NCBI GenBank assembly: GCA_002839315.1
Contig: PGXV01000011.1
Location: 1 to 64,000 of the forward strand
Direction of reading: 5' to 3'
Length of the DNA: 64,000 bases
Source of the DNA: Spirochaetae bacterium HGW-Spirochaetae-3
GTDB taxonomy: Bacteria; Spirochaetota; Spirochaetia; Treponematales; UBA12059
Below the pieces are notes generated by a model that saw only the letters and a list, made by a program, of their open reading frames with translations, did not search any database and was not told the origin of the DNA. Every line of letters begins with the position of its first letter. The first letter of the stretch is position 1. The position numbers were made by a program, and so were the translations under genes. Shown one piece after another: positions 5,223-31,456 of the stretch.

Positions 5223-6353
5223 TCAGAGACCTAGAACAGACCAGCAGGCGTCGGCCAGCTCCTGGAACCGCTCGTGCGCGGATCGCAATTCCTGGAATCT
5301 ATTGCAGGTGAACGAGAACACGAGACCGCTCGGCGGATCGGCCCAGCCGAAGGCGCAGCCTCCCTGGCCGGAGTGGCCGAACGTTTTCTCCGTGGCTCCT
5401 CGCCCCATGTGGCGAATGTCACGATCGGGAAACGGCGAATATCCGCCGAGGCCGTAGCCCATCGCCCAGCGGACCCGCATGCCCGTACCGCCGTCTGGTC
5501 CTTCGTAACGCATGGTCGTAGCCTTGGCTACCGTAGCCGCAGACAGGTACCGACGCCGCTCGTAGGCGCCTCCTTGCAGTAGCATCTCGTAGAACGCCGC
5601 TATATCGCGAGCAGTCGTATTGAGGGATGCCGCGGGGAGGAAGAGCCTTCGGTAGAGCGGATTGGAGAAAACACGCCTGGCCGCGGCCTGTTCCGGGTCC
5701 GCGGTATAAATCCTGGACGCGCGCCCGTATTCGCCGAAAGGGAGGCCGGCATAACTGTCTGCCATGCCGAGCGGTTCGAGGAAGGATTCCGTCAGGTAGT
5801 CGGAGGCATTCATGCCGGAAGCCCTGCGGATAAGCTCGCCGAGGACGAATGCCCCCGAAAACGGATGGTAGACGACCGCGGTGCCGGGTTCGTATTCCGG
5901 CACGAGTGCCGCGGCCCTCTTGGCTCCTCCGCGGGGCGAGAGCCAGGAAATAAGATCACCGATCGTCGCCTTCCCCGGGATCCCCGCCTGATGGAGCAGA
6001 ACATTGGCTATCGTGATCCCGCCCTTGCCTCTCGCCCCGAATTCCGGCCAATACTTCGCTACCGGAGCGTCGAGATCGAGGGCTCCTTCATCGGCGAGCT
6101 TGTGGACGCACGTCGCGGTGAAGGCTTTCGTCGTCGAATACGCCATGAACGGCGTGGTAGCCGAGACGCGTCGACGGCGACCGTCGTCGGCGTAGCCTCC
6201 CCAGCGGTCGACTACCGTCCGCCCGTTCAGCTTCACGCAGAGCTGGGCGCCGAAATGCAGCCCGCGCTCCAGTTGCTCGTCGAAGACCTTGGCGACCCGG
6301 TCAAAGCCCGGTTCGATACAACCGCTCCCGTCCGCCGCGGGCGTCTCGTTCAT
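5223..6353 (-). CDS. Serine hydrolase of the beta-lactamase/esterase (S12, family VIII) fold
   Basis: A 376-aa protein with the penicillin-binding-protein-like triad. The S-T-T-K motif at residues 73-76 gives the nucleophilic Ser73 and Lys76. Tyr162 sits in VVYHPFSG. A GHSGQGG block near 326-332 replaces the KTG motif. This pattern is typical of EstB-like carboxylesterases. There is no signal peptide, so it should be cytoplasmic and act on imported molecules. Its start overlaps the end of the MFS gene by four bases (ATGA), so the two are co-translated and controlled by the operator at 7710-7736. Deacylation or hydrolysis of an SQ-derived ester is my hypothesis. Confidence 0.85.
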   Translation of the reverse strand: MNETPAADGSGCIEPGFDRVAKVFDEQLERGLHFGAQLCVKLNGRTVVDRWGGYADDGRRRRVSATTPFMAYSTTKAFTATCVHKLADEGALDLDAPVAKYWPEFGARGKGGITIANVLLHQAGIPGKATIGDLISWLSPRGGAKRAAALVPEYEPGTAVVYHPFSGAFVLGELIRRASGMNASDYLTESFLEPLGMADSYAGLPFGEYGRASRIYTADPEQAAARRVFSNPLYRRLFLPAASLNTTARDIAAFYEMLLQGGAYERRRYLSAATVAKATTMRYEGPDGGTGMRVRWAMGYGLGGYSPFPDRDIRHMGRGATEKTFGHSGQGGCAFGWADPPSGLVFSFTCNRFQELRSAHERFQELADACWSVLGL

Positions 6354-7696
6354 ACCGTCCCTTCCGCTTTCACCTCCCCGGTACCGACGCCGAGAAGGCT
6401 CAGGAAGGATAACAAGAAGAAGACAGGGCAGACGATGAAGATGACGCTATAGTCGCGGCCGGCGAGGTCGATGATACGGCCGTTGAGTATGGGACCGATG
6501 GTTCCGGCGAAAGTCGTGGCGATGAAGTATAGCCCCGAATAGGTTCCCATGAGGTCTTCCGACGTCGACGTATCGAGTATCATCGGTAGGCAGTTGATAT
6601 TGACCAGCGCCCAGCCGAAGCCGCCGACGAAGAGCATGGCCGCGACCATCGGGAACGAGGGAAACAGCCAGATAGCCACGAGCGCTACGGCGAATACGAG
6701 GAGCCCGGCCGATATGGTAAGCTTGCGGCCGAATCGCTTCGCCAGCGCCGCGCTCGGCATCGCGAAGATCAGGAACGACACGTACGAGACGGCGAGGAGA
6801 ACGGCCGCGAAGGACGGCTTCAATCCGAGCGCGGTTACCGCGAACGATGAGAAGAAGGTCTCCAGAGCCATATATCCGACCATATAGAAGAATACAGTCA
6901 AGACGAGGCGGAACAGGCTCCTCTTGTTCGCCGCGGGCACGCTCTTGAGCTTGGACAGGACCCTGAGGCCGCCGGGGGTATCCGCGGCCTCTGCCAGCTC
7001 CTTCGGTTCCTTGATTTTGATGAAAAGAATGGCGATGGCCAGTAACGTTACCACCGCCCCGAACCAGAACGGCAACGCCTCGAGAACTCCGAAGAGCATA
7101 CCTCCGACGACGAAGGCCAGGATGCCGCCGATGCCTGACATGATATTGATGATGGCGTTGGCTTGGGACCGAAGCGGCGAGGGGAACAGGTCGGGCATGA
7201 GAGCGAAGAGGGGCGTCCTCCAGAGGGCCATGAACAGCACCATAGCGAGCGCCGCGGCGATCGTGATCGCGAAGGGCCCGGAGAGCGATGCGATCTGGCC
7301 CGAGAGTCCCGCGGGAATGAGCATCGGCCCGATAGGGATAAGGGCGAAGGCCAAGGCCGATAACGGCGCGAAGATCAGGATGTACGGCATGCGGCGACCG
7401 AACCTGGTCCGCGTCTTATCGCTGATCGGCCCCATGATGGGTTGAATAAAGAACGCCGCGACGTTGTCCAACGTCATGATGATACCGGTAATGGTGGCGG
7501 AAAGACCGAAACCTCTCGTCGCCTGGCCGCTCGAGAACGAGGCGCTGCCCGCTTGCAGGAAGATGGGCATGTACGTATTGTACAGCATCCACATGAGCTG
7601 GGCCCCGAACAGACCGAAGCCTAGCAGGATCGCCTTGCTATAGTATTCTTTTGTCATCGGTTTCGCCGACGATCTTATACCGCCGCTTGATGTCAC
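6350..7696 (-). CDS. MFS transporter, glycoside/cation symporter-like
   Basis: A 448-aa membrane protein with about 12 hydrophobic segments. It resembles the GPH (glycoside-pentoside-hexuronide:cation) and SLC45-like branch of the MFS. The cytoplasmic loop after segment 2 carries the KTRTRFGRRMPY motif, and the second half repeats it with AKRFGRK. The ATG at 7696 has GGAGGA immediately upstream. It is the first gene of a two-gene unit with the serine hydrolase, and its promoter contains a copy of the ROK operator. It probably moves SQ, a sulfoquinovosyl glycerol or another SQ derivative; direction and substrate cannot be read from sequence. Confidence 0.85.
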   Translation of the reverse strand: MTSSGGIRSSAKPMTKEYYSKAILLGFGLFGAQLMWMLYNTYMPIFLQAGSASFSSGQATRGFGLSATITGIIMTLDNVAAFFIQPIMGPISDKTRTRFGRRMPYILIFAPLSALAFALIPIGPMLIPAGLSGQIASLSGPFAITIAAALAMVLFMALWRTPLFALMPDLFPSPLRSQANAIINIMSGIGGILAFVVGGMLFGVLEALPFWFGAVVTLLAIAILFIKIKEPKELAEAADTPGGLRVLSKLKSVPAANKRSLFRLVLTVFFYMVGYMALETFFSSFAVTALGLKPSFAAVLLAVSYVSFLIFAMPSAALAKRFGRKLTISAGLLVFAVALVAIWLFPSFPMVAAMLFVGGFGWALVNINCLPMILDTSTSEDLMGTYSGLYFIATTFAGTIGPILNGRIIDLAGRDYSVIFIVCPVFFLLSFLSLLGVGTGEVKAEGTV

Positions 7697-7709
7697 ATAA
7701 TCCTCCCTT

Positions 7710-7766
7710 TATTTATTTTCTTTCTGTAAGTAAATACTAGGTATCATGGACATCAGGAACTGTCAA
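7710..7766 (-). promoter_or_regulatory. Promoter and ROK-type operator of the MFS/hydrolase unit
   Basis: On the minus strand a TTGACA -35 (7761-7766) lies upstream of a palindrome at 7710-7736. The palindrome has 11-bp arms (one perfect GTAAGTAAATA, the other with two mismatches) around a 5-base spacer. The same arms and spacing occur at 10204-10230 and 19690-19716. The operator here lies just downstream of the presumed -10. Confidence 0.7.
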
Positions 7767-7811
7767 TGAAAAGACCGAGTAAGGGGAACCGCCGTGAGCC
7801 TCGGAAGATGT

Positions 7812-8789
7812 TCAGGTCAAGTTTACGCCGAGGGTCTTGATCGAACCTACCGTTTCGAGCCCGGCGGGTTTGGCCACGCCGCTAAAGATCTCGACGTCGC
7901 CGATCGATAGCCTGGCGCGCATTACTGCATCCACAGATTCAGCGATGCGCCGTTCCATACGGCCGGCCACGGGAGCCAATAACAAGCCTCCCCTGCCTCG
8001 CGTCAGGCTTATCTCGAGGGTTTCCTTCTTACGCCTTATTACGATGCATATCTCGCTATCGCTCGATCGGGCGTCGATAATCCTGGAACCATTCCAGCTC
8101 GCCCATACCTTCGCGGGCGTATCACCGCCGGGCAGGCTCATCGCGCATATGAAGCCGGGGAAGCTACCGCCGAGCCAGGGTATGTTCGCCAGGGAGAACA
8201 TCAACGATACGCCCGGCTGCGCGAAGGCGTTGGATTGAGCCCATATCCATGCGGACGGCATTGACCGTCCCCAGTCCTTCTCGATGTAGCCGCGGCCGCC
8301 GTCCATAGAAAGGCTGTCGCCGTCAAACTCGATTGAGCCACGTACTTCATGGTCGAGAGAGACAAGGCCGTGATTGCATTCCATGAAGGGGAAGAAGCTG
8401 TATGGCCCCATGATACCGGGATTCCACGGCCGCGCGGGATAGGATACGAGGGGGCCGTACTCGAGCCGCGCCGACAGGGCTCCATCCGGACCGTCCAGGT
8501 GCAGGTCCAACCCCTCGGAGCCGAAGCGGTTCGGTCCTATGTTGATATCCAGCTTCCTTCTGTCCCAGCTAAAGGCGTCGAAGGGAAAATCGTACCAGCG
8601 CGTGGTACCGGCGGTACCGTCGATGACTTGGACGAAGCTTCGCCTCGGCCCGCCGTCCGAATCTATGGAAATCCCCGGTATGAATGCCCAGGCTTTTCCA
8701 TCCGTCGATACCTGTTTGAAGTACCATCCCTCGAAGTAGGAGCGTCTACGTCTAGCGCCCTGGAACAGCGCAGGCTTCAATATGGACAT
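7812..8789 (-). CDS. Tocopherol-cyclase-like (lipocalin-type beta-barrel) protein
   Basis: A 325-aa protein with the typical opening of the tocopherol cyclase family (KPALFQG, then SYFEGWYFK at about residues 17-25). Further family-like blocks follow, such as MGPYSFFPFMECNHG and GYIEKDWGRSMPSAWIW. Plant members cyclise tocopherol precursors. Bacterial members are widespread in anaerobes that make no tocopherol, and their function is unknown. There is no signal peptide. It lies divergently from the ROK regulator gene, 64 bp away, inside the SQ locus. Binding or processing of a lipid such as SQ-diacylglycerol is a guess from context. Confidence 0.75.
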   Translation of the reverse strand: MSILKPALFQGARRRRSYFEGWYFKQVSTDGKAWAFIPGISIDSDGGPRRSFVQVIDGTAGTTRWYDFPFDAFSWDRRKLDINIGPNRFGSEGLDLHLDGPDGALSARLEYGPLVSYPARPWNPGIMGPYSFFPFMECNHGLVSLDHEVRGSIEFDGDSLSMDGGRGYIEKDWGRSMPSAWIWAQSNAFAQPGVSLMFSLANIPWLGGSFPGFICAMSLPGGDTPAKVWASWNGSRIIDARSSDSEICIVIRRKKETLEISLTRGRGGLLLAPVAGRMERRIAESVDAVMRARLSIGDVEIFSGVAKPAGLETVGSIKTLGVNLT

Positions 8790-8853: not shown

Positions 8854-10143
8854 ATGGATATAATCGATCAAGCGCCAGGCGATGTCAAAGATATATACGT
8901 TCTCGCAGGGACAACCGGTTTCGGGTTGCCTGGTTCGGCTTTGATGCTATATCATCGTACGGCTATGTCCCCAACAAACAATCCACTTCGCGTGGCCGAC
9001 GTTCGCGAGAGAAACGAGAAGCTGGTCCTCAGGCTTATTCGAGAATCGGGGGCCGTAGGCCTCTCGCAGTCCGAGACGGTCGTAGCGACGGGCCTACGGG
9101 CGCCTACGATCCTACGCATCTTCTCGAGCCTCGAGGAGGCGGGATTCATAGAACCTCGCACGGGAGCCTCGGCGAAGGACAATGACAGAGAGCGCAAGGG
9201 GCGGCCCAGAATCTCGTATATCGTCAAGGCAGGGGCTCTCTATTCGCTCGGCGTCGAATTCTGGGTAGATAGCGTTACTCTTGGCATCTTCGATTTCAGG
9301 GGGACGAGGATCGCGTCCCGGGTTCGGCCCCTCCCGCGGGGAACGGACGCGGATACCGTCACGGACCTGATCGCGGAAGAGGTCGATTCGACGATAGACT
9401 CGCTCGGCCTCGAGCGGAGCCTCGTGCTCGGTCTCGGGCTCGGAGCCCCCGGGCAGGTCAACGTAGGGAAGAGAGAGATAGCCTTCTATTCGCGTATCCC
9501 GGGAATGCGCGACTTCCCTATAGCTTCGAGGCTCGAGGAGAGGCTCGGCTTTCCCGTATCCATACACAACAATTGCGCCGTCATCGCGCTTTCCGAATTC
9601 CGTTACGGCGGGCTCGTGGAGACCGACTCGCTTTTCATGTTTCTCCTCCGCTCCGGCGTCAACGGGGCATTTATAAACAAGGGGAAGATCTACCTCGCAT
9701 CCGACGGAACGACGATCGAAACGGGGCACATCACCGTCGACTACGAAGGCCTGCCCTGCGCATGCGGGGCGCGAGGATGCCTCGAATCGTACATAACCGC
9801 GCTGGAAAGGCCGACCATTGAAGCCGGAAAATGGCTTTTCGAAGGGATGAGCGCACGGATCGAAGCCGGCGACGAGGACGCGACAACGACGCTTCGAGAG
9901 GCGGCGCGATATTTATCGGCTGCGATGCGTACCGTCTCGCGGCTCTTCAGGCCGCGGACGTTCCTGATCGAAGCCGTAACCGTCCCTATCGCCTCGAGGC
10001 TCTCCGCCCTCGTGGCCGAGAGCCTCGAGGAATCCGCCTCGGGCTTCGATACGCCCATGCCTCTGTTCGAGGCTCGAGCCTACGATCCCGAACTAGCCCA
10101 ACGAGGCGCGGCCGATCTGGTCATAGACGCTTTTCTATCGTAG
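8854..10143 (+). CDS. ROK-family transcriptional repressor (NagC/XylR type)
   Basis: An N-terminal winged helix (VLRLIRESGAVGLSQSETV and following) is joined to a ROK sugar-kinase-like domain. The zinc-binding C-x-C-G-x-x-G-C-x-E motif is encoded around 9754-9784. The start is uncertain: the ATG at 8854 has only a weak ribosome site, and the ATG at 8965 would begin closer to where relatives start. Proteins of this class bind palindromic operators and release them on binding a sugar. The gene is followed, 40 bp after its stop, by a promoter with a perfect 45-bp palindrome, and two further copies lie in the locus. It is the obvious candidate for their regulator, with SQ or a derivative as inducer. 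Confidence 0.88.
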   Translation: MDIIDQAPGDVKDIYVLAGTTGFGLPGSALMLYHRTAMSPTNNPLRVADVRERNEKLVLRLIRESGAVGLSQSETVVATGLRAPTILRIFSSLEEAGFIEPRTGASAKDNDRERKGRPRISYIVKAGALYSLGVEFWVDSVTLGIFDFRGTRIASRVRPLPRGTDADTVTDLIAEEVDSTIDSLGLERSLVLGLGLGAPGQVNVGKREIAFYSRIPGMRDFPIASRLEERLGFPVSIHNNCAVIALSEFRYGGLVETDSLFMFLLRSGVNGAFINKGKIYLASDGTTIETGHITVDYEGLPCACGARGCLESYITALERPTIEAGKWLFEGMSARIEAGDEDATTTLREAARYLSAAMRTVSRLFRPRTFLIEAVTVPIASRLSALVAESLEESASGFDTPMPLFEARAYDPELAQRGAADLVIDAFLS

Positions 10144-10182: not shown

Positions 10183-10239
10183 TTGACATTTGTTTCTCCC
10201 TGGTATTTACTTACTAACGGTAAGTAAATACCAGGGAGA
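10183..10239 (+). promoter_or_regulatory. Promoter and perfect palindromic operator of the sulfoglycolysis operon
   Basis: A TTGACA -35 (10183-10188) is followed by a perfect inverted repeat with 20-bp arms (10195-10214 and 10220-10239) around the spacer TAACG. The core is TATTTACTTAC-N5-GTAAGTAAATA. The palindrome covers the presumed -10 and ends inside the ribosome-binding site of the next gene. Confidence 0.82.
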
Positions 10240-10243
10240 CAAG

Positions 10244-11560
10244 ATGAAGCGTAGCATAAGACTCGGTCTCGTGTGCTTTGCCCGAGAGACATTCGATTTC
10301 AAGGCGGCCGCGGAGATATACGGCAGGATAGCGGCCGATCTTTCCGGCCTCGAGAACGTCGTCTGGGAACGCGTCCCCGACCTCGTCATATCGGTGGAAG
10401 ACGCCAGGAAGGCGGGCGCGAGGTTCGCGGCCGCCTCACTCGATGCCGTCGTCTGCGTATCGGGAACCTTCCATCTCGGACACCTTGTCCTCGAGTTAAG
10501 GAAACAGGCTCCCCTTCCCATCCTGCTGTGGGGACTCGATGAATTACCGTACGACGGAGGCAAGATCCGACTCAACTCGGTATGCGGCGTCAACCTGGAC
10601 GCGTCCAACCTATACAAGGCCGGAGTCGACGACTACCACGCCACGGTCGGTTCGAAGATCGACGAGAACTGGGTCGACGCGATACGCGCCGTTTCGGCCA
10701 TGAAGAACTCCCATCTCGGGATAGCGGGCTACCGGGCTCACGGTTTCTTTAACCTGAGCGTCTCGGATCCCGACCTGTACGGCGACACAGGGCTCCTCCT
10801 CGACCATTTCGAGCTTTCCGACATCTTCGGGGAACCCGTCGAGGCCGAGAGCATCGCGTCTAGTCGGGAGAAGATGCTGGACACGTTCGACGTCTCGGGT
10901 ATTTCAGAGGCTCAGGTTTCCAAGGTATCGGAGCTCACCGCCAGGCTCGACTCGTTCTGCGCCAGAAACGCGCTCGACGCGCTCGCGATACGTTGCTGGC
11001 CCGAATACGCCCGCGATTTCGGCATATCGCCATGCGCCGCGATGTCGCTACTGCAATCGGAGGGACGGCTACTCGCCTGCGAAGGAGACGTCGAGGGAGC
11101 CATCTCCATGCTCCTCCACAAGGCGATCGGCGCCGAGACTCCCTATCTATTCGACTTTTCACAATTCGACTTCGAGGAAAACTTCGCCCTCTTCTGGCAT
11201 TGCGGCGTCGCGCCGTGCAATCTCTGGGACGGGAGCTCCTGCCGTTCCCTCGACACCTACTTCGCCGGAGGCAAGGGCGTCACGGCGGATTTCGTCTTGA
11301 AGAGCGGGGAACTGTCCATCGCCCGAATCGACGCCGCGAGAGGCAAGCGAAGGCTCTTCCTCCAGAGGGCCCGGGCCGTTCCCATGGAGAAGGAACTGAA
11401 GGGGACGTACATGAAAGCGGTGTTCGACAGGCCCGTCCGCGAGATACTGGATCTCATAATCGAAAAAGGGATCGCCCATCACGCCTCCGTGGCGTACGGG
11501 GACTTCATAGAACCGCTCCGTATCGTAGCCAGGCTCAAGGGCTGGGAGATAGTCGAGTAG
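10244..11560 (+). CDS. Ketose/aldose isomerase of the L-fucose isomerase type; likely sulfoquinovose isomerase
   Basis: A 438-aa protein of the FucI/AraA-type isomerase fold (an N-terminal half with VVCVSGTFHLGH, and a C-terminal barrel domain). I start it at the ATG at 10244, since AGGGAGA lies four bases upstream; the longer frame from 10190 runs through the operator. Isomerases of this type, called SqvD or SftI in other sulfoglycolysis clusters (from memory), turn SQ into 6-deoxy-6-sulfofructose. It is the first gene of the operon running into the transketolase genes. The substrate is inferred from the neighbours and from the absence of any other SQ-to-sulfofructose enzyme here. Confidence 0.8.
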   Translation: MKRSIRLGLVCFARETFDFKAAAEIYGRIAADLSGLENVVWERVPDLVISVEDARKAGARFAAASLDAVVCVSGTFHLGHLVLELRKQAPLPILLWGLDELPYDGGKIRLNSVCGVNLDASNLYKAGVDDYHATVGSKIDENWVDAIRAVSAMKNSHLGIAGYRAHGFFNLSVSDPDLYGDTGLLLDHFELSDIFGEPVEAESIASSREKMLDTFDVSGISEAQVSKVSELTARLDSFCARNALDALAIRCWPEYARDFGISPCAAMSLLQSEGRLLACEGDVEGAISMLLHKAIGAETPYLFDFSQFDFEENFALFWHCGVAPCNLWDGSSCRSLDTYFAGGKGVTADFVLKSGELSIARIDAARGKRRLFLQRARAVPMEKELKGTYMKAVFDRPVREILDLIIEKGIAHHASVAYGDFIEPLRIVARLKGWEIVE

Positions 11561-11631: not shown

Positions 11632-12462
11632 ATGACCAAGCAAGAATCAGCGGATATCGCGGCCCAGGCCAAGCAAATCCGCGGCAAGACGATAGATGCC
11701 ATAGGCTATCTCGGCGTCGGGCACATAGGCGGCGCCCTCTCCATCGTGGAGCTACTGGCCGTTCTCTATCACCGGCATATGCGCATCGACCCCAACGATC
11801 CCTCATGGCCGGAGCGCGACAGGTTCGTGCTATCGAAGGGACACGCGGGGCCGGCGCTGTACGCCACCCTCGCGTTGAAAGGGTTCTTTCCCCAGGAATG
11901 GCTCCATACGCTCAACAAGGGCGGCACGAGGCTCCCGAGCCACTGCGACCGCAACCTGACGCCGGGGATAGACATGACGACAGGTTCGCTCGGCCAGGGG
12001 CTATCGGCCGCCTGCGGCATAGCGCTCGCCGCCCGTATCGACGGGCGGGAATCCTTCACGTACGCCGTCATCGGCGACGGAGAGTCCGACGAGGGGCAGG
12101 TCTGGGAGGCGGCGATGTTCGCGGCGCACCAGCGGCTCGGCCGACTTATCGCGTTCACCGACTACAACAAGATGCAGATAGACGGAAAGACGAACGAGAT
12201 CCTCGACCTCGGCAGGCTCGAGGACAAATGGGCGGCCTTCGGGTGGGAGTCGGCTCGCGTCGACGGCCATGATATCGAGGCGATAGACGCGGCGATAGGG
12301 GCGGCGAAGGTCCGCGCCGATACCGCGGGGGCGAGGCCTACGATGATCGTGCTCGATACGGTCAAGGGAAAGGGCGCCGCGTTCTGCGAGGGCTCCGTAG
12401 GTAGTCATAACATGGCCTTCGATTACGCGACCGCGCTCAACGCCATAGCGGAACTCGGCTAG
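11632..12462 (+). CDS. sqwG: Transketolase, N-terminal (ThDP-binding) subunit; sulfofructose transketolase
   Basis: A 276-aa split transketolase subunit. The thiamine-diphosphate motif runs from GDGESDEGQ to the DYNKMQIDG region (about residues 148-183), and GVGHIGGALS and SKGHAGPALYA are typical of the family. GGAGG precedes the ATG. In the sulfo-transketolase pathway the enzyme removes C2 from sulfofructose to give 4-deoxy-4-sulfoerythrose. After isomerisation it removes C2 again to give sulfoacetaldehyde, each time making xylulose 5-phosphate from glyceraldehyde 3-phosphate. Subunit letters follow my memory of the SqwGH name. A housekeeping transketolase would look similar; the flanking genes make the sulfosugar role likely. 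Confidence 0.85.
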   Translation: MTKQESADIAAQAKQIRGKTIDAIGYLGVGHIGGALSIVELLAVLYHRHMRIDPNDPSWPERDRFVLSKGHAGPALYATLALKGFFPQEWLHTLNKGGTRLPSHCDRNLTPGIDMTTGSLGQGLSAACGIALAARIDGRESFTYAVIGDGESDEGQVWEAAMFAAHQRLGRLIAFTDYNKMQIDGKTNEILDLGRLEDKWAAFGWESARVDGHDIEAIDAAIGAAKVRADTAGARPTMIVLDTVKGKGAAFCEGSVGSHNMAFDYATALNAIAELG

Positions 12463-12481
12463 AGACAGGCAAGGAGTTAGA

Positions 12482-13459
12482 ATGACCACCCAGAAAAAAG
12501 AGATGCGCGCGGTCTACGCCGAGACGCTCGTTGAACTGGCGAAGGATGACGATAGCATAGTCGTACTGGAGGCGGACCTGATGAAGGCCTCCGGCACCGG
12601 TCCTTTCCTCGCGGCCTTCCCCGACCGATGCTTCAACCTCGGCGTCGCCGAGGCCAACATGGTCGGCGTGGCCGCCGGGCTGTCGTCGGAAGGGAAGATT
12701 CCCTTCGCGACTACCTTCGGCTGCTTCGCGTCGAGGCGCGCCTTCGACCAGTTCTTCGTCAGCTGCGCGTACGCCCGGCTCAACGTGAAGCTGATCGGCA
12801 CCGATCCCGGCGTCTCCGCCGCCCTGAACGGCGGCACCCATATGCCTTTCGAGGACCTGGCGCTGATGCGCTCGGTACCCGGAATCGCCGTCATCGAACC
12901 ATCGGACGCGGCGTCGCTCCACGGGCTCCTCGGCGCCATGGCACGGAGGAAGGGCTCCGTGTATATGCGGCTACACAGGAAAGCCGTACCGGACCTGTAT
13001 CCCGCCGACGAGCGATTCGAGATCGGCAAGGCCAAACTACTCCGCAAGGGCGACCGCGTGGTCATAGTGGCGCTCGGCCCGCTGATGGTCGGCGAGGCGC
13101 TCAAGGCCGCCGACGCCCTCGCGGCGGAAGGGATCAGCGCATCGGTCATAGACGCGCTGACGCTGAAGCCGCTCGATACCGAGATGATACTAACCGAGGC
13201 TCGCCGTTGCGGCGCCGTCGTCACCGCCGAGAACCATCAGATCATAGGAGGCCTGGGCTCGGCCGTCGCGGAGCTACTCGCGGAGACGGGCGTCGCCCGC
13301 CTCGCGCGCGTCGGCATCCAGGACGAATTCGGCGAGGTGGGAACCCAGGATTACCTGATGGATCGCTTCCGCCTCCGCGCCGAGCGCATCGTCGAGCTAG
13401 CCAAGGGACTCGTCACCGGGGATACCCATACCGTCAACGAAGGAGCTATTCATGGCTGA
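12482..13459 (+). CDS. sqwH: Transketolase, C-terminal (pyrimidine-binding) subunit
   Basis: A 325-aa partner of the preceding subunit, with the pyrimidine-binding and C-terminal domains of transketolase. It includes the conserved glutamate region (FNLGVAEANMVGVAAGLS, about residues 51-68) that activates ThDP, and the C-terminal AENHQIIGGLGSAVAE block. It begins 19 bp after the N-terminal subunit. Its last 8 bases overlap the next gene, so expression is tightly coupled. Splitting transketolase into two chains is common in anaerobes and in known sulfo-transketolase clusters. Confidence 0.85.
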   Translation: MTTQKKEMRAVYAETLVELAKDDDSIVVLEADLMKASGTGPFLAAFPDRCFNLGVAEANMVGVAAGLSSEGKIPFATTFGCFASRRAFDQFFVSCAYARLNVKLIGTDPGVSAALNGGTHMPFEDLALMRSVPGIAVIEPSDAASLHGLLGAMARRKGSVYMRLHRKAVPDLYPADERFEIGKAKLLRKGDRVVIVALGPLMVGEALKAADALAAEGISASVIDALTLKPLDTEMILTEARRCGAVVTAENHQIIGGLGSAVAELLAETGVARLARVGIQDEFGEVGTQDYLMDRFRLRAERIVELAKGLVTGDTHTVNEGAIHG

Positions 13460-13940
13460 TACGATCAGGCTCGCCATCGCGAGCGACCTCTCGGGATTCC
13501 CCCTGGCCCGGGAGATAGTCAGGCACCTCAAGGAGACCCATCCAGAGGTCAAGATCATCGACTTCGGCATAGAGAGCGCCGAGGCTCCCCTGCCGTATTT
13601 CGTTCAGGCCCCCAAGGTAGCCAAGGCGCTACAGGCCGGCGAGGCGGACAAGGGCATCCTCGTCTGCGGGACCGGCCAGGGAATGGCTATCGTCGCCAAC
13701 AAGCACAAGGGCGTCTACGCCTGCGTCGTAGACGACTTGTTCTCCGGCGAGCGCGCCAAGATAGTCAACAACGCCAACGTCATAACGATGGGCGGATGGA
13801 TTACCGCGCCGTTCCTCGGCGCGCAGATCGTCGACGCGTGGCTGTCGGTAGCGTTCACCCAGAAGATGGAGTTCAAGAAGGATTTCCTGACGAACGCCTT
13901 CAATAAGGTAGTAGAGCTCGAGAACGAAGCCTTTAAATAA
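13452..13940 (+). CDS. sqwI: RpiB/LacAB-type isomerase; likely 4-deoxy-4-sulfoerythrose isomerase
   Basis: A 162-aa protein of the ribose 5-phosphate isomerase B family. The conserved cysteine loop ILVCGTGQGMAIVANK is present (about residues 69-84), as is the NNANVITMG stretch. A phosphopentose isomerase would not be expected in this position. In the transketolase type of sulfoglycolysis an RpiB-like enzyme (SqwI) converts sulfoerythrose to sulfoerythrulose, so that transketolase can act a second time. The gene overlaps the transketolase subunit before it. The phosphate-binding residues of RpiB may be changed; an alignment would be needed to see this. Confidence 0.82.
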   Translation: MADTIRLAIASDLSGFPLAREIVRHLKETHPEVKIIDFGIESAEAPLPYFVQAPKVAKALQAGEADKGILVCGTGQGMAIVANKHKGVYACVVDDLFSGERAKIVNNANVITMGGWITAPFLGAQIVDAWLSVAFTQKMEFKKDFLTNAFNKVVELENEAFK

Positions 13941-13952
13941 GGAATGATCACC

Positions 13953-16541: not shown

Positions 16542-17428
16542 GCATATTCATAGATAGAAGCGACCGTGTACTCGTTCAGGGCATCACCGGGAACGAGGGC
16601 TCGTTCTGGACGCGGCACATGATGGAGCTAGGCACCGCCGTCACGGTCGGCGTCACGCCGGGCAAGGAGGGCCAGAGCGTAGAGGGCGTTCCCGTGTACC
16701 ACACGATACGCCGGGCCGTCGCCGAGAGGCCCGCGGACGCCGCGATGTTGTTCGTCCCCCCGCGCTTCACCCGCGACGCCGTCTTCGAGGCGCTCGACTC
16801 GGGACTCAAGAAGATCGTGACGATAGCGGACGGCATACCGCTACAGGACTCCGTACAGATACGCAAGGCCGCACTCTCCTGCGGCGCCCGCGTCGTGGGC
16901 GGCAACACCTCGGGAGTCATCAGCCCCGGCCTGGCGATGATGGGCATGTTCCCCTACTGGATAGAGCGGGTCTACCGCCCCGGCCGCATCGGCGTGATGA
17001 CTCGCTCGGGATCGCTGACCAACGAGGTGACCGCCATGGTGGTACGCGCCGGCTTCGGCGTATCCACCCTCGTCGGCGTCGGCGGCGACCCGGTGCCCGG
17101 CACGCGCTTCGCGGAGATGCTACCCGACTTCCAGGACGATCCGGGCACCGACGCCATCGTCGTCATAGGCGAGCTCGGCGGCACGATGGAGGAGGAAGTA
17201 GCCGAAGCTATGCTCTCGGGCGCGTTCACCAAGCCGGTCGTCGCGTTCCTGGGCGGTCGGACCGCGCCGGCGGGCAGGCGCATGGGCCACGCCGGCGCGA
17301 TCGTGACCGGCGGCAAGGGCTCGGTAGCGGACAAGATAGCCGCGTTCGAGAAGGCCGGCGCTCTCGTCGCCGACAGGCCGCGCCTGGTAGGCGAACTGCT
17401 CGTTCGCGCTCTCGGGCCGCGCTCGTGA
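16538..17428 (+). CDS. sqwL: ADP-forming acyl-CoA ligase, alpha (SucD-like) subunit
   Basis: A 296-aa SucD-type subunit. The N-terminal Rossmann CoA-binding domain (VQGITGNEGSFW at about 14-25) is followed by the ligase domain with the phospho-histidine motif GHAGAIVTGGKG near residues 249-260. The ATG at 16538 overlaps the beta-subunit stop by four bases, and its own stop overlaps the GTG of the exporter gene. A much longer reading frame passes through the same stop from 15254, but upstream of 16538 it is only a shadow of the beta subunit. Confidence 0.85.
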   Translation: MSIFIDRSDRVLVQGITGNEGSFWTRHMMELGTAVTVGVTPGKEGQSVEGVPVYHTIRRAVAERPADAAMLFVPPRFTRDAVFEALDSGLKKIVTIADGIPLQDSVQIRKAALSCGARVVGGNTSGVISPGLAMMGMFPYWIERVYRPGRIGVMTRSGSLTNEVTAMVVRAGFGVSTLVGVGGDPVPGTRFAEMLPDFQDDPGTDAIVVIGELGGTMEEEVAEAMLSGAFTKPVVAFLGGRTAPAGRRMGHAGAIVTGGKGSVADKIAAFEKAGALVADRPRLVGELLVRALGPRS

Positions 17429-18888
17429 AGACTGAAGCAAGCGCGAAGGGCACCGCCTACCGCGTCGGGGCGATAGCGCTCGCCGTCGCGGCGCTCATAC
17501 TCGCGATGGTAGCGCCGCTTCCCGACTCCATCCTGACGATACGGGGCGCGACGCTCTCGCCGCAGGGCAGAGCCGCCATCGCGACGCTCGTATTCGCCCT
17601 CGTCCTGTGGATCTCCGAGGCCCTGCCCTTCCACGTCACGGGCCTCCTGGCGATACTCGTCATGACCCTTCTAGGAGCCGGCGGCTACGCCGACATAGTT
17701 CGCTACGGCTTCGGGGACGACGTCGTCGTGTTCTTCATAGGCGTCCTCGTGATCGCCGCCTGTCTCCGCCGCTCCGGCCTGGCCAAGCGCGCCGGCTCGA
17801 TCGTGCTCGCTATAACGGGAAACTCGACGAGGGCCATAGTGCTCGGGTTCCTCGTAGCGGGCGCCTTCCTCGCGATGTGGATAACGGCGCTCGGTTCCGT
17901 AGCGATCATCATGCCGCTCGCCCTCGGAGTGCTGACCGAGGAGGGCGAGAAGCCGGGAGAGAGCAGGTTCGGGACCGCGCTGATGATAGCCACCGCCTGG
18001 GGGCCGCTGATCGGCGCGATGGCGACGCCCGCGGGCTCCGGCTCCAATCCCATAGCGATACGGTTCATGTCCGAGATCGCGGGCTACGACATCGGGTTCC
18101 TCGGCTGGATGGCCTTCGGCGTGCCTACGGCTATCATCCTTCTGCCCGCCGCGTGGCTGATCATACTGCTCTTCTTCCCTCCCGAGCGGCGCGCGCTGCG
18201 GAAGAGCGTCGAGGAGATCCGCTCGGAAGCGAGCGGGCGCCTCCCGCTGACGCGCGACGAGAAGTCCGTAGGCCTTATTTTCCTGTCAACCATCGCCCTA
18301 TGGATGCTGTCGCCGGCGATAGCGCACGCGATAGGAATGAAGCTACCCATATCGGTAGGCGCGCTTATAGCCGTCGTGGCTATCTTCGCTCCTGGCGTGT
18401 CGACGTATAAATGGAAGGATATAGAGAAGGATATCGACTGGTCCGGCATCCTGCTGATAGCCACCGGCATAAGCCTGGGCACCACCCTGTACAAGACGGG
18501 AGCCGCGGCCTGGGTCGCGGCCGGCATACTGGGCGGCATAGGTTCCCTGTCGATCTTCTGGCGGCTGGCGGCGGTCTCGCTCGGCGTATTCTCCATCAAG
18601 GTCGTGTTCTCGTCGAACACGCTCACGGGCACCATCATCGTTCCGCTCGTGCTAGCGCTCGGAACGAGCCTCGGACTCGATGCGCGAGGCCTGGCGCTCG
18701 CGGCGGCGCTCACCGCCAACCTGGCCGTCATACTCGTCACCACGAGCCCCGTCAACGTCGTGCCATATACCGCCGGCTATTTCACGATACGGGACATGGC
18801 CAAGGCCGGGCTCGCGCTCGCGGCGGTCTCCGCCTTGGCCATAGCCGCCGTCGTAAGCGTCATAGGCGGCGTCGCCGGCATAGTGTAG
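17425..18888 (+). CDS. SLC13/DASS-family anion transporter; likely sulfoacetate exporter
   Basis: A 487-aa protein with 11-13 hydrophobic segments of the DASS (divalent anion:Na+ symporter, SLC13) family. Paired Ser-Asn-Thr-like motifs are visible (ATPAGSGSNPIA at about 193-204 and SSNTLTGT near 396-403). It starts with GTG, overlapping the ligase stop. Proteins of this family carry dicarboxylates, sulfate and sulfonates. Its place after the last pathway enzyme suggests removal of sulfoacetate, though uptake cannot be excluded. Confidence 0.8.
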   Translation: MKTEASAKGTAYRVGAIALAVAALILAMVAPLPDSILTIRGATLSPQGRAAIATLVFALVLWISEALPFHVTGLLAILVMTLLGAGGYADIVRYGFGDDVVVFFIGVLVIAACLRRSGLAKRAGSIVLAITGNSTRAIVLGFLVAGAFLAMWITALGSVAIIMPLALGVLTEEGEKPGESRFGTALMIATAWGPLIGAMATPAGSGSNPIAIRFMSEIAGYDIGFLGWMAFGVPTAIILLPAAWLIILLFFPPERRALRKSVEEIRSEASGRLPLTRDEKSVGLIFLSTIALWMLSPAIAHAIGMKLPISVGALIAVVAIFAPGVSTYKWKDIEKDIDWSGILLIATGISLGTTLYKTGAAAWVAAGILGGIGSLSIFWRLAAVSLGVFSIKVVFSSNTLTGTIIVPLVLALGTSLGLDARGLALAAALTANLAVILVTTSPVNVVPYTAGYFTIRDMAKAGLALAAVSALAIAAVVSVIGGVAGIV

Positions 18889-18900
18889 CGAGGAGGAACC

Positions 18901-19608
18901 ATGGACGCTCATTCGCTCGCCGAGAAGAACCCCGGCATGACGGTAGTAGCCGTCGACGATCACCGGATCGATCCGTACTGCCGCACGCTCGCCGTCCCGG
19001 GGATATCGGGCCTCGTGCAGTTCGCCGACGGTCTCATCCCCGATAATCTCGACGCGAACCTGTATATCGCCTCGAGCCCAGAGCTCGAGTCGCAAGAAGC
19101 CTGCGGCGCCTTCTCGGCGTTCTTCGGATACGCCGATATACAGGTAGGCTACAACGCCGGCCCCAATTCTACGCTTAACGGTCTCGAGTGGCACAGGACC
19201 CCGGAAGTACTCGTAGCCGTCAGCGATATCGCGTTGCTGGTAGGCAGGGTCGAGGACATAGAGACCGACTCCGCCGGCGAAACCCGCTACGACTCGAGTC
19301 GGGTCGTGTGTATTCTAGTCCCGCGGGGGACCGTGCTCGAGCTACGGCAAGGAACGCTCCATCTCGCGCCGTGCCGCCTCCGCGACGCGGGCTTCAAGAC
19401 CATCGTCGTACTGCCTCGCGGTACCAACGCGCCCCTCTCCGCGACGGAGATCGCCGCCGCCCGCGAGGCCTCGTCCTCGGGTAACATCGAAGCGGGATTC
19501 CTGTTCATGCGTAATAAATGGATCATCGCGCATCCGGAGCGGGCCGTCCTCGTCGATAAGGGAGCCCGGCCGTGCATACGCGGGAAGAATACAAGGATCG
19601 CGTATTAG
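18901..19608 (+). CDS. DUF4867-family protein (cupin-like)
   Basis: A 235-aa protein that I match to DUF4867, a family seen beside sugar isomerase genes and, as far as I recall, in other sulfoglycolysis clusters. Visible blocks include EAFSAFFG-like ACGAFSAFFGYADIQVGYN, NSTLNGLEWHR and VPRGTVLELRQGTLHLAP; the last is typical of a cupin barrel with a possible metal-binding His/Glu set. It follows the exporter by 12 bp with GAGGA before the ATG, so it is the last gene of the operon from 10244. A mutarotase or isomerase accessory role is possible; its function is unknown. Confidence 0.7.
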   Translation: MDAHSLAEKNPGMTVVAVDDHRIDPYCRTLAVPGISGLVQFADGLIPDNLDANLYIASSPELESQEACGAFSAFFGYADIQVGYNAGPNSTLNGLEWHRTPEVLVAVSDIALLVGRVEDIETDSAGETRYDSSRVVCILVPRGTVLELRQGTLHLAPCRLRDAGFKTIVVLPRGTNAPLSATEIAAAREASSSGNIEAGFLFMRNKWIIAHPERAVLVDKGARPCIRGKNTRIAY

Positions 19609-19668: not shown

Positions 19669-19719
19669 TTGACAGGTAGTCAATGCCATGTATTACTTAC
19701 TATAAGTAAGTAATACATG
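19669..19719 (+). promoter_or_regulatory. Promoter and palindromic operator of the ABC importer unit
   Basis: A TTGACA -35 (19669-19674) and a TATTAC -10 (19691-19696) are spaced 16 bp apart. The -10 lies within a perfect palindrome with 14-bp arms (19687-19700 and 19706-19719) around the spacer TATAA. The core TTACTTAC-N5-GTAAGTAA equals that of the operators at 7710 and 10195. The rest of the 247-bp gap to the next gene holds no ORF of note. Confidence 0.8.
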
Positions 19720-19855: not shown

Positions 19856-21184
19856 ATGAAGTCAAAAATTTCTGTTCTCCTCATCGTGCTACTGGCAGTT
19901 TCAGCTATGTCCGCGTTCGCCGTGGGCGACAAAGACTCGGGAACCGCCTCGGGAGCTCCGGCTCGAACCATCAACGTCCTACTGTGGGACGATCCGTATC
20001 CCAAGGCACTCATGGCCATGCTGCCCGAGTTCACCGCTGCGACCAACATCACGGTCAATATCGAGATGCTCCAGCCGCCGCAGGTACTCACCAAGACCGC
20101 CATATCCGTTACACCGACGAGCACCGACTACGATGTAGTGGGCATAGACGAGGGAAATATCCCCGTGTTCGCCTCCTTGCTACTCCCGTTCGATTCCTGG
20201 TACAAGGGCACCGTCTATCCCAAGACGGATCCCAAGTCGATAACCCCCAAGATGTATAGCATCGGTACCTGGAACGGCGTACAGGTCGGCGTGCCCATCA
20301 ACGGCAACCTCTACGTATGGATGACCCGCAAGGATCTCATCGAGAACCCGACCTACAAGGCCCAGTTCAAGGCCAAGTACGGCTACGACCTCGGCGTTCC
20401 CAAGACCTTCAAAGAACTGCTCGAGATGGGGACGTTCTTCTACGAGAACGACATAGCGGCCGGCTTCGGCCCCTTCAACGGCGGACCCGCCGGCGTGCTA
20501 TCAGAAGCGGTCTTCATGTGGGAATCCTTCGGCACCAAATTCATCGACTATACCGGCGGGACCTACAAGGTAGTGCTCGATCAGGCCAAGGCCGTCGAAG
20601 GCATGGAATTCTACAAGAAACTGATGGCTATCTCCCCCAAGGGAGCGGAGACCATGGCTCACGTCGAGCGCCAGGCCGCCTTCGCCGCCGATCCCAAGGG
20701 CGTGTTCTCCATGTTCATCTGGCCCGCCCAGATCGCCGCGTACGAGGATCCCGCCAAGTCGCTCGTCGCGGGCAAGATCGCCTACTCCGCGCCGCCCGCC
20801 GGTCCCCGCGGACAGGCCGCCGTCACCGGAGCCTGGGCCATCGCCATTCCCAAGGCCTCCAAGAACCAGGAAGCGGCCGCCGAGTTCGTCTACTGGTGGT
20901 CAAGCAAGGCAATAGCCGACAAGCTCGTCCAGGCCAACACCATTCCGGCCCGTACCGAGACCCTGACCAACCCCGCCTACGCCGCCAGCAAGCCTTGGCT
21001 TCCCGCCCTCGCCGACTCTATGAAGGTCGCCGCATCCAGGCCGCGCTTCAAGGAAATCGGCCAGGTTCAGGACGTCGTCAAGAAGTACTGGGTCATGGGC
21101 ATCACCGGCGCCATGCCGACGAACGAAGCGATCCGTATGATAGTCAAGGAAACCAATGACATTCTCCAGAAGGCCGGCTACTAG
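19856..21184 (+). CDS. ABC transporter substrate-binding protein (sugar type, SQ or SQ-glycoside candidate)
   Basis: A 442-aa secreted protein. It has a Lys-rich N-terminus, a hydrophobic core at residues 6-20, and a likely signal peptidase I site after AFA (about residue 21); no lipobox cysteine is present. The body resembles family 1 sugar-binding proteins (for example INVLLWDD, and TGAWAIAIPKASKNQEAA near the C-terminus). GGAAGG precedes the ATG. It starts the unit that continues into two permeases and lies behind an operator copy, so it should deliver SQ or sulfoquinovosyl glycerol from the periplasm. Confidence 0.87.
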   Translation: MKSKISVLLIVLLAVSAMSAFAVGDKDSGTASGAPARTINVLLWDDPYPKALMAMLPEFTAATNITVNIEMLQPPQVLTKTAISVTPTSTDYDVVGIDEGNIPVFASLLLPFDSWYKGTVYPKTDPKSITPKMYSIGTWNGVQVGVPINGNLYVWMTRKDLIENPTYKAQFKAKYGYDLGVPKTFKELLEMGTFFYENDIAAGFGPFNGGPAGVLSEAVFMWESFGTKFIDYTGGTYKVVLDQAKAVEGMEFYKKLMAISPKGAETMAHVERQAAFAADPKGVFSMFIWPAQIAAYEDPAKSLVAGKIAYSAPPAGPRGQAAVTGAWAIAIPKASKNQEAAAEFVYWWSSKAIADKLVQANTIPARTETLTNPAYAASKPWLPALADSMKVAASRPRFKEIGQVQDVVKKYWVMGITGAMPTNEAIRMIVKETNDILQKAGY

Positions 21185-22103
21185 CCAAACCGGGAGAGTC
21201 GCATTAAGAAGGTCGGGGGGCCAAGGGTCCCCCGTTCCTTTTCTAGTGCCTGCGCTCCTGATCGTATTCGCGGTCCTCATCTTCCCTATCGTGTTCTCGT
21301 TCGTCGTGTCGCTATTCGACTGGCCGCTGTCGGCCGGCGGCGGCCAGCGTCGTTTCGTCGGGGCCGGTAACTACAAGGACCTGGTAATGGACAAGGAATT
21401 CTGGAACAGCCTCAGGCTGCAACTGGGATTCATATTCATAGCCATACCCTTGGAGCTGGTTCTCGGCTTGGCGGCCGCGCTACTCCTCAATCGGGAGTTC
21501 CAGGGAGGCCGCGTCGTTCGGGCCCTCATCCTGCTTCCCGTGTTCTTCCTGCCCGTGGTATCGGGCATGACCTGGCGCTTCATGCTACAGCCGCGGTACG
21601 GAGCGCTCAACAACTTCCTCCTGTCGCTCGGGGCCCCGGAGATCACCTGGTTAGGGCATCCGACGTTCGCGTACGCCGCCATCATCGTCCAGGATATCTG
21701 GCGTATGTGGCCGTTCGTATTCATGCTCCTGTATGCCGGCTTAGCGGGTATCCCGAGCGACGTCCTGGAGGCCGCGGAAATAGACGGGGCGACCTTCTGG
21801 AAGCGCCTGTTCCTGGTCATCCTGCCCTTGATGTATCCGACCATACTGACCGCCTTGCTCCTCCGCATAATAGACGCGCTCAGGATATTCAGCGAGGTCT
21901 ACGTGATGACCGAGGGAGGCCCGGGAATGTCGACCACCCTGTTCAGCCTGTACACGCACAGGCAAGCCTTCGGATACATGAAGGTAGGCATGGCGAGCGC
22001 CATGGCCATGTTCCTTCTGACCATTTCCGTCATCTTCGCCGTTACCCTCGTACGCAAGAATATGAGCCTTGAAAAGCTCGAGGACCAGGGAGGCAACCGA
22101 TGA
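21156..22103 (+). CDS. ABC sugar transporter permease 1 (MalF/UgpA type)
   Basis: A 315-aa permease with six or seven hydrophobic segments. The cytoplasmic EAA loop is clear (EAAEIDGATFWKRLFLVILP). The first 28 bases overlap the end of the binding-protein gene; a start a few codons downstream is possible. It forms the transmembrane channel with the next gene product. The cluster contains no ATPase subunit, so a shared MsmK/UgpC-like ATPase elsewhere in the genome must power it. Confidence 0.88.
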   Translation: MTFSRRPATSQTGRVALRRSGGQGSPVPFLVPALLIVFAVLIFPIVFSFVVSLFDWPLSAGGGQRRFVGAGNYKDLVMDKEFWNSLRLQLGFIFIAIPLELVLGLAAALLLNREFQGGRVVRALILLPVFFLPVVSGMTWRFMLQPRYGALNNFLLSLGAPEITWLGHPTFAYAAIIVQDIWRMWPFVFMLLYAGLAGIPSDVLEAAEIDGATFWKRLFLVILPLMYPTILTALLLRIIDALRIFSEVYVMTEGGPGMSTTLFSLYTHRQAFGYMKVGMASAMAMFLLTISVIFAVTLVRKNMSLEKLEDQGGNR

Positions 22104-22933
22104 CGATGGCCAACAGGCGAAAGACGATAACGACCGCGGTCATGTTCTTCGCGATAGCCTTGCTACTCATCGAGCTCTATCCGATCATCATTACCCTGCT
22201 CAACGGCTTCAGGAGGGATATCGTAATCCTCTCCGGCCAGAAATTCGAGCTCAACCAGCTGACGCTCGACAGTTACATGCTGGTTTTCAAGAACAGACAG
22301 ATGATGAAGGCCATGGGCAACTCCGTAATCGTAGGGCTTTTGTCCACGGCCCTATCCGTAGGCGTCGGCGCCATGGCCGCCTACGGTATCTCTCGGTTCA
22401 AGTTCAGGGGACGCAACGCGCTGGCGTACAGCTTCCTCGTATTCAGGATGCTCCCGCAGATGTCGCTCGTCGTGGCGCTGTACATGATGTTCAAGGCCGT
22501 CGGCCTGCGAGATACCATCTTCGGCATTACACTGGCGCATTCCAGCTTCAACGTGCCGTACGTGATATGGATGCTCATCCCATTCTTCACGGCCGTCGAC
22601 AAGAGCTATGAGGAGGCAGCCATGGTGGACGGATGCACCCGCTGGACCCTATTCAAGCTGGTTTTCCTGCCGCTGGTAGCACCCGGGCTCGTCGTCGCGG
22701 CGGTGTTCGCCTTCATTAACAGCTGGAACGAATTCCTCTACGCGCTGATACTGACGGGCGTCAAGGCCAGGACCGCGCCGGTAGCCATCTCCAGCCTCAT
22801 AGGAGGCGATACGCTGACCTGGGGGCAGATGTGCGCTGCGAGCACGGTCATGCTGACGCCGGTATTCGTATTCACGCTCGCAATGCAGCGATTCCTGATA
22901 CGCGGCGTCGCCGCGGGCGGGGTGAAGGGCTGA
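22100..22933 (+). CDS. ABC sugar transporter permease 2 (MalG/UgpE type)
   Basis: A 277-aa permease. Its ATG overlaps the stop of permease 1 (ATGA). Six hydrophobic segments and an EAA loop (EEAAMVDGCTRWTLFKLVFLP) place it in the MalG family. It is the partner of permease 1. The gene is followed by a hairpin and T-run at 22968-22996, so most transcripts of the importer may end here before the sulfoquinovosidase gene. Confidence 0.88.
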   Translation: MTMANRRKTITTAVMFFAIALLLIELYPIIITLLNGFRRDIVILSGQKFELNQLTLDSYMLVFKNRQMMKAMGNSVIVGLLSTALSVGVGAMAAYGISRFKFRGRNALAYSFLVFRMLPQMSLVVALYMMFKAVGLRDTIFGITLAHSSFNVPYVIWMLIPFFTAVDKSYEEAAMVDGCTRWTLFKLVFLPLVAPGLVVAAVFAFINSWNEFLYALILTGVKARTAPVAISSLIGGDTLTWGQMCAASTVMLTPVFVFTLAMQRFLIRGVAAGGVKG

Positions 22934-30510: not shown

Positions 30511-31415
30511 GCCGCCCTCCCCTCTCGGACCTCGTACGGATTGTACGCTACGAGGGCGACGAGGGCGTCGTCCGCCAGGCGCGACGAGAAATCGTCGTCG
30601 GAGACGCCGCGGCAGGCTACGACGAAGCCGCCGAATTCGATACGGCGGCCGACGTACAGAGTCCGTTCGCGTAGAAAGGCCGACAGCTCGGAATCTCCTA
30701 TGAATACCTTCGTAAAATCCTCCACGACGACCGCCTTGGCTCCCTTGGGAATGCGGGCCATGGTAGCCGCGGTAAGCGCGCCGTCGAACGTGAACGCCTC
30801 GGCGCGCGCGGCGTCGTCGCGCGCGGCGTCGACGCGAGGCGCCACGGGCAACGACGCGAGCGCGGCGATCCGCCGAACGCGGGCCGCGGCCTTCTCGAGG
30901 TTGCCGCCGTCGACCCTGAGCGTATACACGAAGCGCGCTCCGCCGACGGAGGCGGCCTGCGTTATCCTGTTGATCGCCCCGTCGACGAGCACCGTACCGG
31001 AGTAGCCGTCTACGATGCTACGGATCGCCCAGGCGACCAGCGAGTTCCCTTCCGGCCCGACGAGGGATACGGTCGCCGCCCGGTGCGCCCGCGCGACGCA
31101 TAGGCGGCCGAGCGCGGTGGAGCCGGGCAGGACGTCGAGGATCTCCGGGGAGCAGGGTCGGGCGAAGCGCTCGGTCGTTACGACGATATCGCCTTCGGCC
31201 ACGGGCACCGCCGGCTTTCGGGCGCCCGACAGGAAGTCGCGCGCCTCCCCGTCGTACCCCACGGTCAGGAGCGCCGGCCCGGGCAGCCCAGCGGCGCGCG
31301 CGCCCCTCCGCGCTATCTCGGCGGCGCGGTTCATGAACGTAGTCTTGCCGCAATGCTTCTCCGGCCCGGTCACGAACGTGACCCTGCCCAGGAAATCCTC
31401 CGCCTTATCCAACAT
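30507..31415 (-). CDS. kamB: P-loop NTPase of the lysine aminomutase operon
   Basis: A 302-aa protein with an N-terminal Walker A (GPEKHCGKTT, residues 17-26) and a Walker-B-like region near VLVDGAINR. It belongs to the accessory pair found between kamA and kamD in lysine fermenters. It probably works with KamC to maintain the B12-dependent mutase; that role is an inference from the constant linkage. The start overlaps nothing upstream; kamA ends 41 bp before it. Its stop overlaps the kamC start. Confidence 0.78.
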   Translation of the reverse strand: MLDKAEDFLGRVTFVTGPEKHCGKTTFMNRAAEIARRGARAAGLPGPALLTVGYDGEARDFLSGARKPAVPVAEGDIVVTTERFARPCSPEILDVLPGSTALGRLCVARAHRAATVSLVGPEGNSLVAWAIRSIVDGYSGTVLVDGAINRITQAASVGGARFVYTLRVDGGNLEKAAARVRRIAALASLPVAPRVDAARDDAARAEAFTFDGALTAATMARIPKGAKAVVVEDFTKVFIGDSELSAFLRERTLYVGRRIEFGGFVVACRGVSDDDFSSRLADDALVALVAYNPYEVREGRAA

Positions 31416-31456
31416 CTAAAATCCTCGTATCCTCTTCGTTCGCTTTTTATTAACCA

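Follow-up and report, generated by a model that had tools for sequence, protein, structure and literature searches.

A serine hydrolase and a major facilitator carrier as probable members of the sulfoquinovose regulon in Spirochaetes

The first 64,000 nucleotides of contig PGXV01000011.1 of Spirochaetae bacterium HGW-Spirochaetae-3 (the window, G000:C8:1-64000, part of a 3.88 Mb genome whose nearest named relatives are uncultured Spirochaetes) contain a gene cluster for the degradation of the plant-derived sulfosugar sulfoquinovose (SQ) and, beside it, genes for a serine hydrolase and a major facilitator superfamily (MFS) carrier that very probably belong to the same regulon. The carrier gene is preceded by the operator that also precedes the SQ operons, and the hydrolase was found exclusively in genomes with SQ genes. 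As to function, the best reading, in which we have about even confidence, is that the pair imports an ester of SQ and deacylates it in the cytoplasm. The original prediction, made from this DNA alone, had joined a third, tocopherol-cyclase-like gene to these two. All three open reading frames lie where it had placed them, and the grouping stands for hydrolase and carrier only; the third gene lacks the operator, shows no association with SQ inside the window's family and adjoins SQ genes in only 1 of 80 loci.

Operators shared by the pair and the SQ operons

The hydrolase gene (5223..6353, minus strand) and the MFS gene (6350..7696, minus strand; judged by codon usage, the likelier start is the ATG at 7657) share 4 bases of reading frame. 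Together with the tocopherol-cyclase-like gene, also on the minus strand, they lie on the other side of a ROK-family regulator gene from the SQ core. The promoter of the pair contains operator 1 (TTACTTACAGAAAGAAAATAA) at 7713..7733 on the minus strand, with 0 mismatches to TTACTTNCNNNNNGAAARTAA and a -35 box, TTGACA, at 7766-7761(-). Two plus-strand counterparts, each with 1 mismatch to TTACTTNCNNNNNGAAARTAA, precede the SQ isomerase operon (10207..10227, with a -35 TTGACA at 10183-10188) and the operon of the SQ ATP-binding cassette (ABC) transporter and sulfoquinovosidase (19693..19713). At up to 2 mismatches, GTAAGTAAATACYAGG is matched at just three positions of the 3.88 Mb genome: at 7726, in front of the MFS gene, and at 10199 and 10220, which are half sites making up a palindrome in front of sqvD; a related palindrome is also present upstream of the window's ABC operon. 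The operator that the original prediction had assigned to the pair is thus real, and scarce in the rest of the genome. Among 1000 Markov shuffles of the 200 bp upstream of the window's MFS gene, none matches as well, and across G000, G007, G045 and G010 the observed match was reached in at most 1 of 1000. The ROK regulator (8854..10143, plus strand, start more likely at 8992; PF00480, NagC/Mlc-like), a homologue of which adjoins SQ genes in many relatives, is the probable binder of operator 1.

A search for TTACTTNCNNNNNGAAARTAA through 16 genomes, in which the genes at the sites were read, gave 21 exact operator-1 places. Core SQ genes account for 17 of these, which precede sqvD, sqwGH, an SQ-type ABC operon or a sulfoquinovosidase-transketolase operon; 2 lie upstream of this MFS gene, in G000 and G007, and 2 at other genes. 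The MFS gene of G007 carries the operator with 0 mismatches although it lies 125 kb from sqvD, and all sites with up to 2 mismatches in this 2.7 Mb genome fall at three loci, namely sqvD, the SQ ABC operon and the MFS gene. In G045, operator 1 occurs only at sqvD and at the MFS gene, the latter with 2 mismatches; the MFS site of G010 also has 2 mismatches, and further sites of this quality exist in that genome. At 2 mismatches the search is noisy, G034 giving 28 matches versus 15 for the reversed control.

The two exact matches at non-SQ genes are site 7529 of locus L233 (G015:C128), upstream of genes for a binding protein, an amidohydrolase and a MocA-type oxidoreductase, and site 7913 of L232 (G026:C13). 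They possibly reflect a different sugar system, controlled by a related ROK regulator.

Some genomes carry the hydrolase without SqvD. The notion that the pair might on this account be unrelated to SQ was rejected, as those genomes have a sulfoquinovosidase and, where contigs allow, sulfo-transketolase (sulfo-TK) genes in an operon headed by a KduI-like protein. The readable SQ operons of such carriers (G026, G042 and G070) start with the KduI-like gene behind GTTAAAGACTTTAAC. Operator 2 (GTTAAARNCYTTRAC) is confined in G042 to the SQ operon and the MFS gene; G026 and G003 each have it at a single place, at or beside the SQ operon. In G086 it is found only at the MFS gene, and since this genome is 57% complete, its absence elsewhere says little. 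One further match lies in G000, where its last bases overlap a possible -35 box, as they do at the MFS sites.

The KduI/IolB-like protein, of about 251 amino acids, heads the sulfo-TK operon where SqvD was not found, with an adjoining ROK gene (genes at L185:5721-6476(-), L188:2570-3337(+) and L189:6749-7504(+)). A role as a non-orthologous SQ isomerase is possible; a literature search for KduI in connection with sulfoquinovose turned up nothing relevant.

Co-occurrence with SQ genes

Co-occurrence was sampled within the Spirochaetes, a genome being scored as SQ-positive if it encodes SqvD at 60% identity or more or a sulfoquinovosidase at 50% or more, as do 36 of the 149 genomes of the order. 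Of the 149, 12 have the hydrolase, and all 12 are SQ-positive (naive Fisher p 8e-9 for the base rate of 36/149); counted by genus, the result is 7/7 hydrolase-bearing genera (p 3e-4). Because these order-wide Fisher values ignore relatedness, the test was repeated inside the window's family, where the hydrolase occurs in 9/13 SQ-positive and 0/10 SQ-negative genomes (p 9e-4, or 0.006 with G019 and G046, whose GH31 is at 44%, scored as SQ-positive). In a draw of 393 genomes from the phylum, 55 of which have a GH31 sulfoquinovosidase match, the hydrolase was found in 7, all of them SQ-positive. Among the carriers, G010 is without a GH31 match but has SqvD as well as further SQ genes. Close MFS orthologues (at least 69%) are present in 9 genomes, again all SQ-positive. 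The genomic co-occurrence that the original prediction had proposed to look for in the three genes is thus seen for the pair, which is accompanied by a YihQ-type sulfoquinovosidase or an SQ isomerase in every one of its 12 genomes, and is not seen within the window's family for the tocopherol-cyclase-like gene.

As a rule the pair lies well away from the SQ cluster. In G042, G015, G026 and G045 it stands among unrelated genes, which in G042 include an L-fucose utilisation cluster; a tie to local neighbours (TrkAH, fucose genes, DUF1501) was rejected, as the contexts differ between genomes. Such settings, along with the promiscuity of which the enzyme family of the hydrolase is capable (PMC9795927), would suit a pair that acts on a plant compound accompanying the sulfolipid, such as an acylated galactosyl-glycerol or some other ester made by plants, with SQ serving as a signal of plant material. 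We regard this explanation as rather unlikely, since the co-occurrence is specifically with SQ genes and G007 has operator-1 sites at SQ genes and at this pair only.

The hydrolase and the carrier

By its sequence, the hydrolase (376 amino acids; PF00144, 237 bits) is a putative family VIII carboxylesterase, of the class C beta-lactamase fold, with an intact motif. Its nearest solved chains are the carboxylesterase 5gmx (E 4e-43) and Esterase A, 5gkv (E 1e-40). The nucleophile motif is S73-T-T-K76, and Y162-H-P and H327-S-G-Q-G-G are also present; judged on intact orthologues, S-x-[TS]-K is kept and Y-H and H-[SA]-G-Q-G-G are invariant. The published motif table of the family gives S-x-x-K, Y-x-x and, as third motif, W-x-G or H-x-x, and the motifs found here agree with subfamily VIII.3 as tabulated there (PMC9795927). 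The esterase motifs that had been predicted are therefore in place, as they are in the known family VIII enzymes (EstB/EH7, Esterase A and the LipL/LipE relatives), with which the hydrolase also shares PF00144. It matches the LipL/LipE models far below their cut-offs, and, in contrast to the situation here, none of the family VIII carboxylesterases in the literature found is reported from an SQ regulon; a literature search for a serine hydrolase linked to SQ gave nothing relevant. The predicted lack of a signal peptide is borne out by hydropathy. The N terminus is not hydrophobic, the Kyte-Doolittle mean over 15 residues reaching at most 0.69 in the first 60 amino acids versus 2.72 for the SQ cluster's secreted binding protein, and the enzyme is for this reason probably cytoplasmic.

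The carrier (448 amino acids) belongs to the MFS_1/MFS_2 (GPH/sucrose-SLC45-like) group, with 118 bits to PF07690 and 85 bits to PF13347. It has the MFS_2 profile in common with the GPH/sucrose-SLC45 symporters, and its QPxxG...SRFGRR-type loop we take to resemble that of sucrose/SLC45 carriers. Matches to the GPH and sucrose symporter models are weak, and its score to the GPH model TIGR00792 is 50.8 versus a cut-off of 231 bits. The nearest solved chains, all with weak E-values, are drug exporters, SLC45A4 and a lysolipid symporter.

These affinities bear on an alternative modelled on LacY-LacA of the lac operon, in which the hydrolase would acylate surplus SQ or non-metabolisable analogues and the carrier would export the product. 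Work cited in PMC9795927 indicates that family VIII members can act as acyltransferases, exporters are among the carrier's nearest solved chains by sequence and uptake is already served by the ABC importer. However, the MFS profile is nearer to those of sugar symporters (MFS_2, GPH, sucrose) and the hydrolase is nearest to esterases, and we consider such an overflow module improbable.

A further alternative separates the two proteins: the carrier would provide another import route for SQ or SQ-glycerol, and the hydrolase would be a general esterase that travels with it as the other half of the gene pair. MFS_2-family carriers do adjoin SQ genes elsewhere (L164:3493-4941 in G101), and ABC and MFS importers may differ in affinity. 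Nevertheless, the hydrolase stays with the carrier across families f1 and f4, mostly in overlapping frames and with its active-site motif kept; separate contigs carry them in G007, but this SQ-positive genome still has both. We give this alternative little probability.

Proposed role of the pair

The window, G026 and G042 combine the pair with the sulfoacetate branch of the pathway, and G007 combines it with the isethionate branch (iron-type alcohol dehydrogenase, Fe-ADH, and TauE). Because it is present with both, the pair is unlikely to serve one end product, and most likely it acts upstream of the branch point, either in uptake or in the initial processing. A role as exporter of the C2 end product is disfavoured on the same grounds. 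Since SQ and SQ-glycerol need no esterase, an acylated SQ compound, or acyl transfer onto SQ, is indicated.

Import and deacylation of an SQ ester is the scheme that we prefer, built on the gene identities, the active-site motifs, the lack of a signal peptide, the operator sharing and the co-occurrence. In the presence of SQ compounds, repression at the shared operator would be lifted, presumably by the ROK regulator. The carrier would then import an esterified form of SQ or of an SQ glycoside, and in the cytoplasm the family VIII hydrolase would remove an acyl group of as yet hypothetical length via a Ser-Lys-Tyr acyl-enzyme. The freed SQ glycoside would pass to the YihQ-type sulfoquinovosidase, and SQ to the sulfo-TK pathway.

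The original prediction had proposed lyso-lipids or SQ-glycerol esters as substrates. The carboxylesterases of family VIII are general ones, and an SQ ester with a short acyl chain, or the transfer of an acyl group onto SQ, would be just as compatible. Lyso-SQ-diacylglycerol (lyso-SQDG) is one possibility among these, to which we would assign a low probability. The same low standing applies to the corresponding function, an intracellular sulfolipid salvage in which the carrier would import lyso-SQDG or acyl-SQ and the hydrolase would delipidate it ahead of the sulfoquinovosidase. Natural algal acyl-SQ lipids are at least touched upon in several papers.

Several observations weigh against import and deacylation as the function of the pair. 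The hydrolase is missing from 24 of the 36 SQ-positive genomes and is thus an accessory. It is a fragment in G054 (in G062 and G045 it is cut by contig ends), and in G034 it has no adjacent MFS gene. The pairs of G015 and G026 carry neither operator 1 nor operator 2. The drug exporters among the carrier's nearest solved chains make export instead of import possible. Finally, SQ compounds already have an ABC importer encoded in the window, so that a further one would need another substrate or another affinity.

About ten billion tonnes of SQ are made each year, most of it in the form of lipid. If sulfolipid salvage were the function of the pair, it would constitute a sulfolipase dedicated to the regulon, in a field in which the papers found attribute the deacylation of SQ lipids to lipases that are non-specific or unnamed (PMC9594981, PMC11968277). 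What tracks the SQ pathway through spirochaete genomes, unlinked to it and mostly with its operator, is a concrete candidate for ester processing that is directly testable.

The tocopherol-cyclase-like gene

The third gene (7812..8789, minus strand) encodes a protein of 325 amino acids with the AttH/CrtC double-barrel fold. Its match to PF14249 (48 bits, cut-off 26.6) covers only profile positions 144-216 of 335, that is 73 positions. The AlphaFold2 (AF2) model, with a pLDDT of 93.4, superposes over about 280 residues at a Z of about 23 on the fold shared by Fsa2, Phm7, CghA and AttH (VIA-align Z 23.6 to CghA and 20.7 to AttH, 2ich); the identity to these proteins is, however, 8-11%, no reaction can be deduced from the likeness, and the gene is not tied to SQ genes.

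On the minus strand the tocopherol-cyclase-like gene ends before operator 1 (7713..7733) and the MFS gene starts after it, which places the former gene outside the operator-controlled transcript. No operator was found upstream of it in the window within 2 mismatches; a promoter-like site of its own is present at 8888-8860(-), such matches being near chance level. The family is widespread, being common in Bacteroidales and others. Order-wide, the gene is associated with SQ (22/29 genomes, p 2e-11), but within the window's family there is no association (p 0.31). Membership of the module was rejected on this basis, and because the association vanished within the family, shared ancestry or lifestyle probably explains it. 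The gene is probably a neighbour that stands outside the hydrolase/MFS module.

Among 80 loci with a homologue, all searched by tblastn, SQ genes were adjacent only in L012, which is the same contig as that in G033, with the gene order of the window (tocopherol-cyclase-like, ROK, sqvD). The gap between the first two genes holds an operator-like site with 2 mismatches in G033 and no operator in the window, and a local link to SQ in G033 is possible. No conserved neighbours of note were seen in the 22 of 80 loci recovered by the gene caller.

The SQ core cluster and neighbouring genes

The core cluster spans 10.2-25.1 kb of the window, all on the plus strand. It begins with an SqvD/SftI-like SQ isomerase (10244..11560; NF048012 186.7 bits, cut-off 700; PF02952 below cut-off), which is followed by the split transketolase SqwGH (11632..13459, as 11632-12462 and 12482-13459; PF00456, PF02779+PF02780), the RpiB-like sulfoerythrose isomerase SqwI (13452..13940; PF02502), the acylating sulfoacetaldehyde dehydrogenase SqwD (13944-15359; NF047625 512 bits, below the cut-off of 600) and an SqwKL-like ADP-forming CoA ligase with succinate-CoA ligase-like subunits (15369-16541, 16538-17428). 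The NCBIfam equivalog cut-offs for SftI and SauS are not reached by the proteins of the cluster. Downstream lie a DASS-family anion transporter (17425..18888; PF00939 and TIGR00785 above cut-off), which would probably export sulfoacetate; an SqvB-like DUF4867 protein (18901..19608; PF16161), of a family discussed with SQ pathways (PMC11968277); an ABC sugar uptake system of a binding protein and two permeases (19856..22933; PF01547, PF00528); and a GH31 sulfoquinovosidase of the YihQ type (23010..25073; E 1.7e-257 to YihQ, 5aed). The GIWAQDW, R-x-x-W and GGYTTLF motifs of the latter align to 5aed, and the positions that presumably bind SQ are kept.

The sulfo-TK gene set of SqvD, SqwGH, SqwI and SqwD/SqwKL, with families as in PMC9594981, is thus complete, and the core is the known sulfo-TK pathway in its SqwD/SqwKL variant, that is a sulfoacetate-forming set with a YihQ-type sulfoquinovosidase. 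Sulfo-TK sulfoglycolysis is known from Clostridia, Spirochaetes and others (PMC9594981, PMC12890257), and its sulfoacetate variant has already been described in Spirochaetes. The published accounts found mention neither a serine hydrolase/MFS pair nor the shared operator, and the pair is here a satellite, usually unlinked to the SQ cluster. Its novelty relative to the core pathway, as originally suspected, holds in that no described SQ pathway was found to include such genes.

The SqvD of the window is 78-83% identical to those of G007 and G045, of family f4, and 62% identical to those of G050 and G054, members of its own genus. Being closer to f4 than to its own genus, it suggests that this form of the SQ operon was probably exchanged horizontally between families. 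The pair, the MFS protein of which is 80% identical to that of G045, may have been exchanged likewise.

Downstream of the hydrolase, tandem NhaC-like antiporter paralogues (1701-3347 and 3494-5128) were seen with no operator. A pair of CoA-transferase subunit genes (182-1534) and the D-lysine 5,6-aminomutase/lysine 2,3-aminomutase genes at 27242-32752 look like lysine fermentation.

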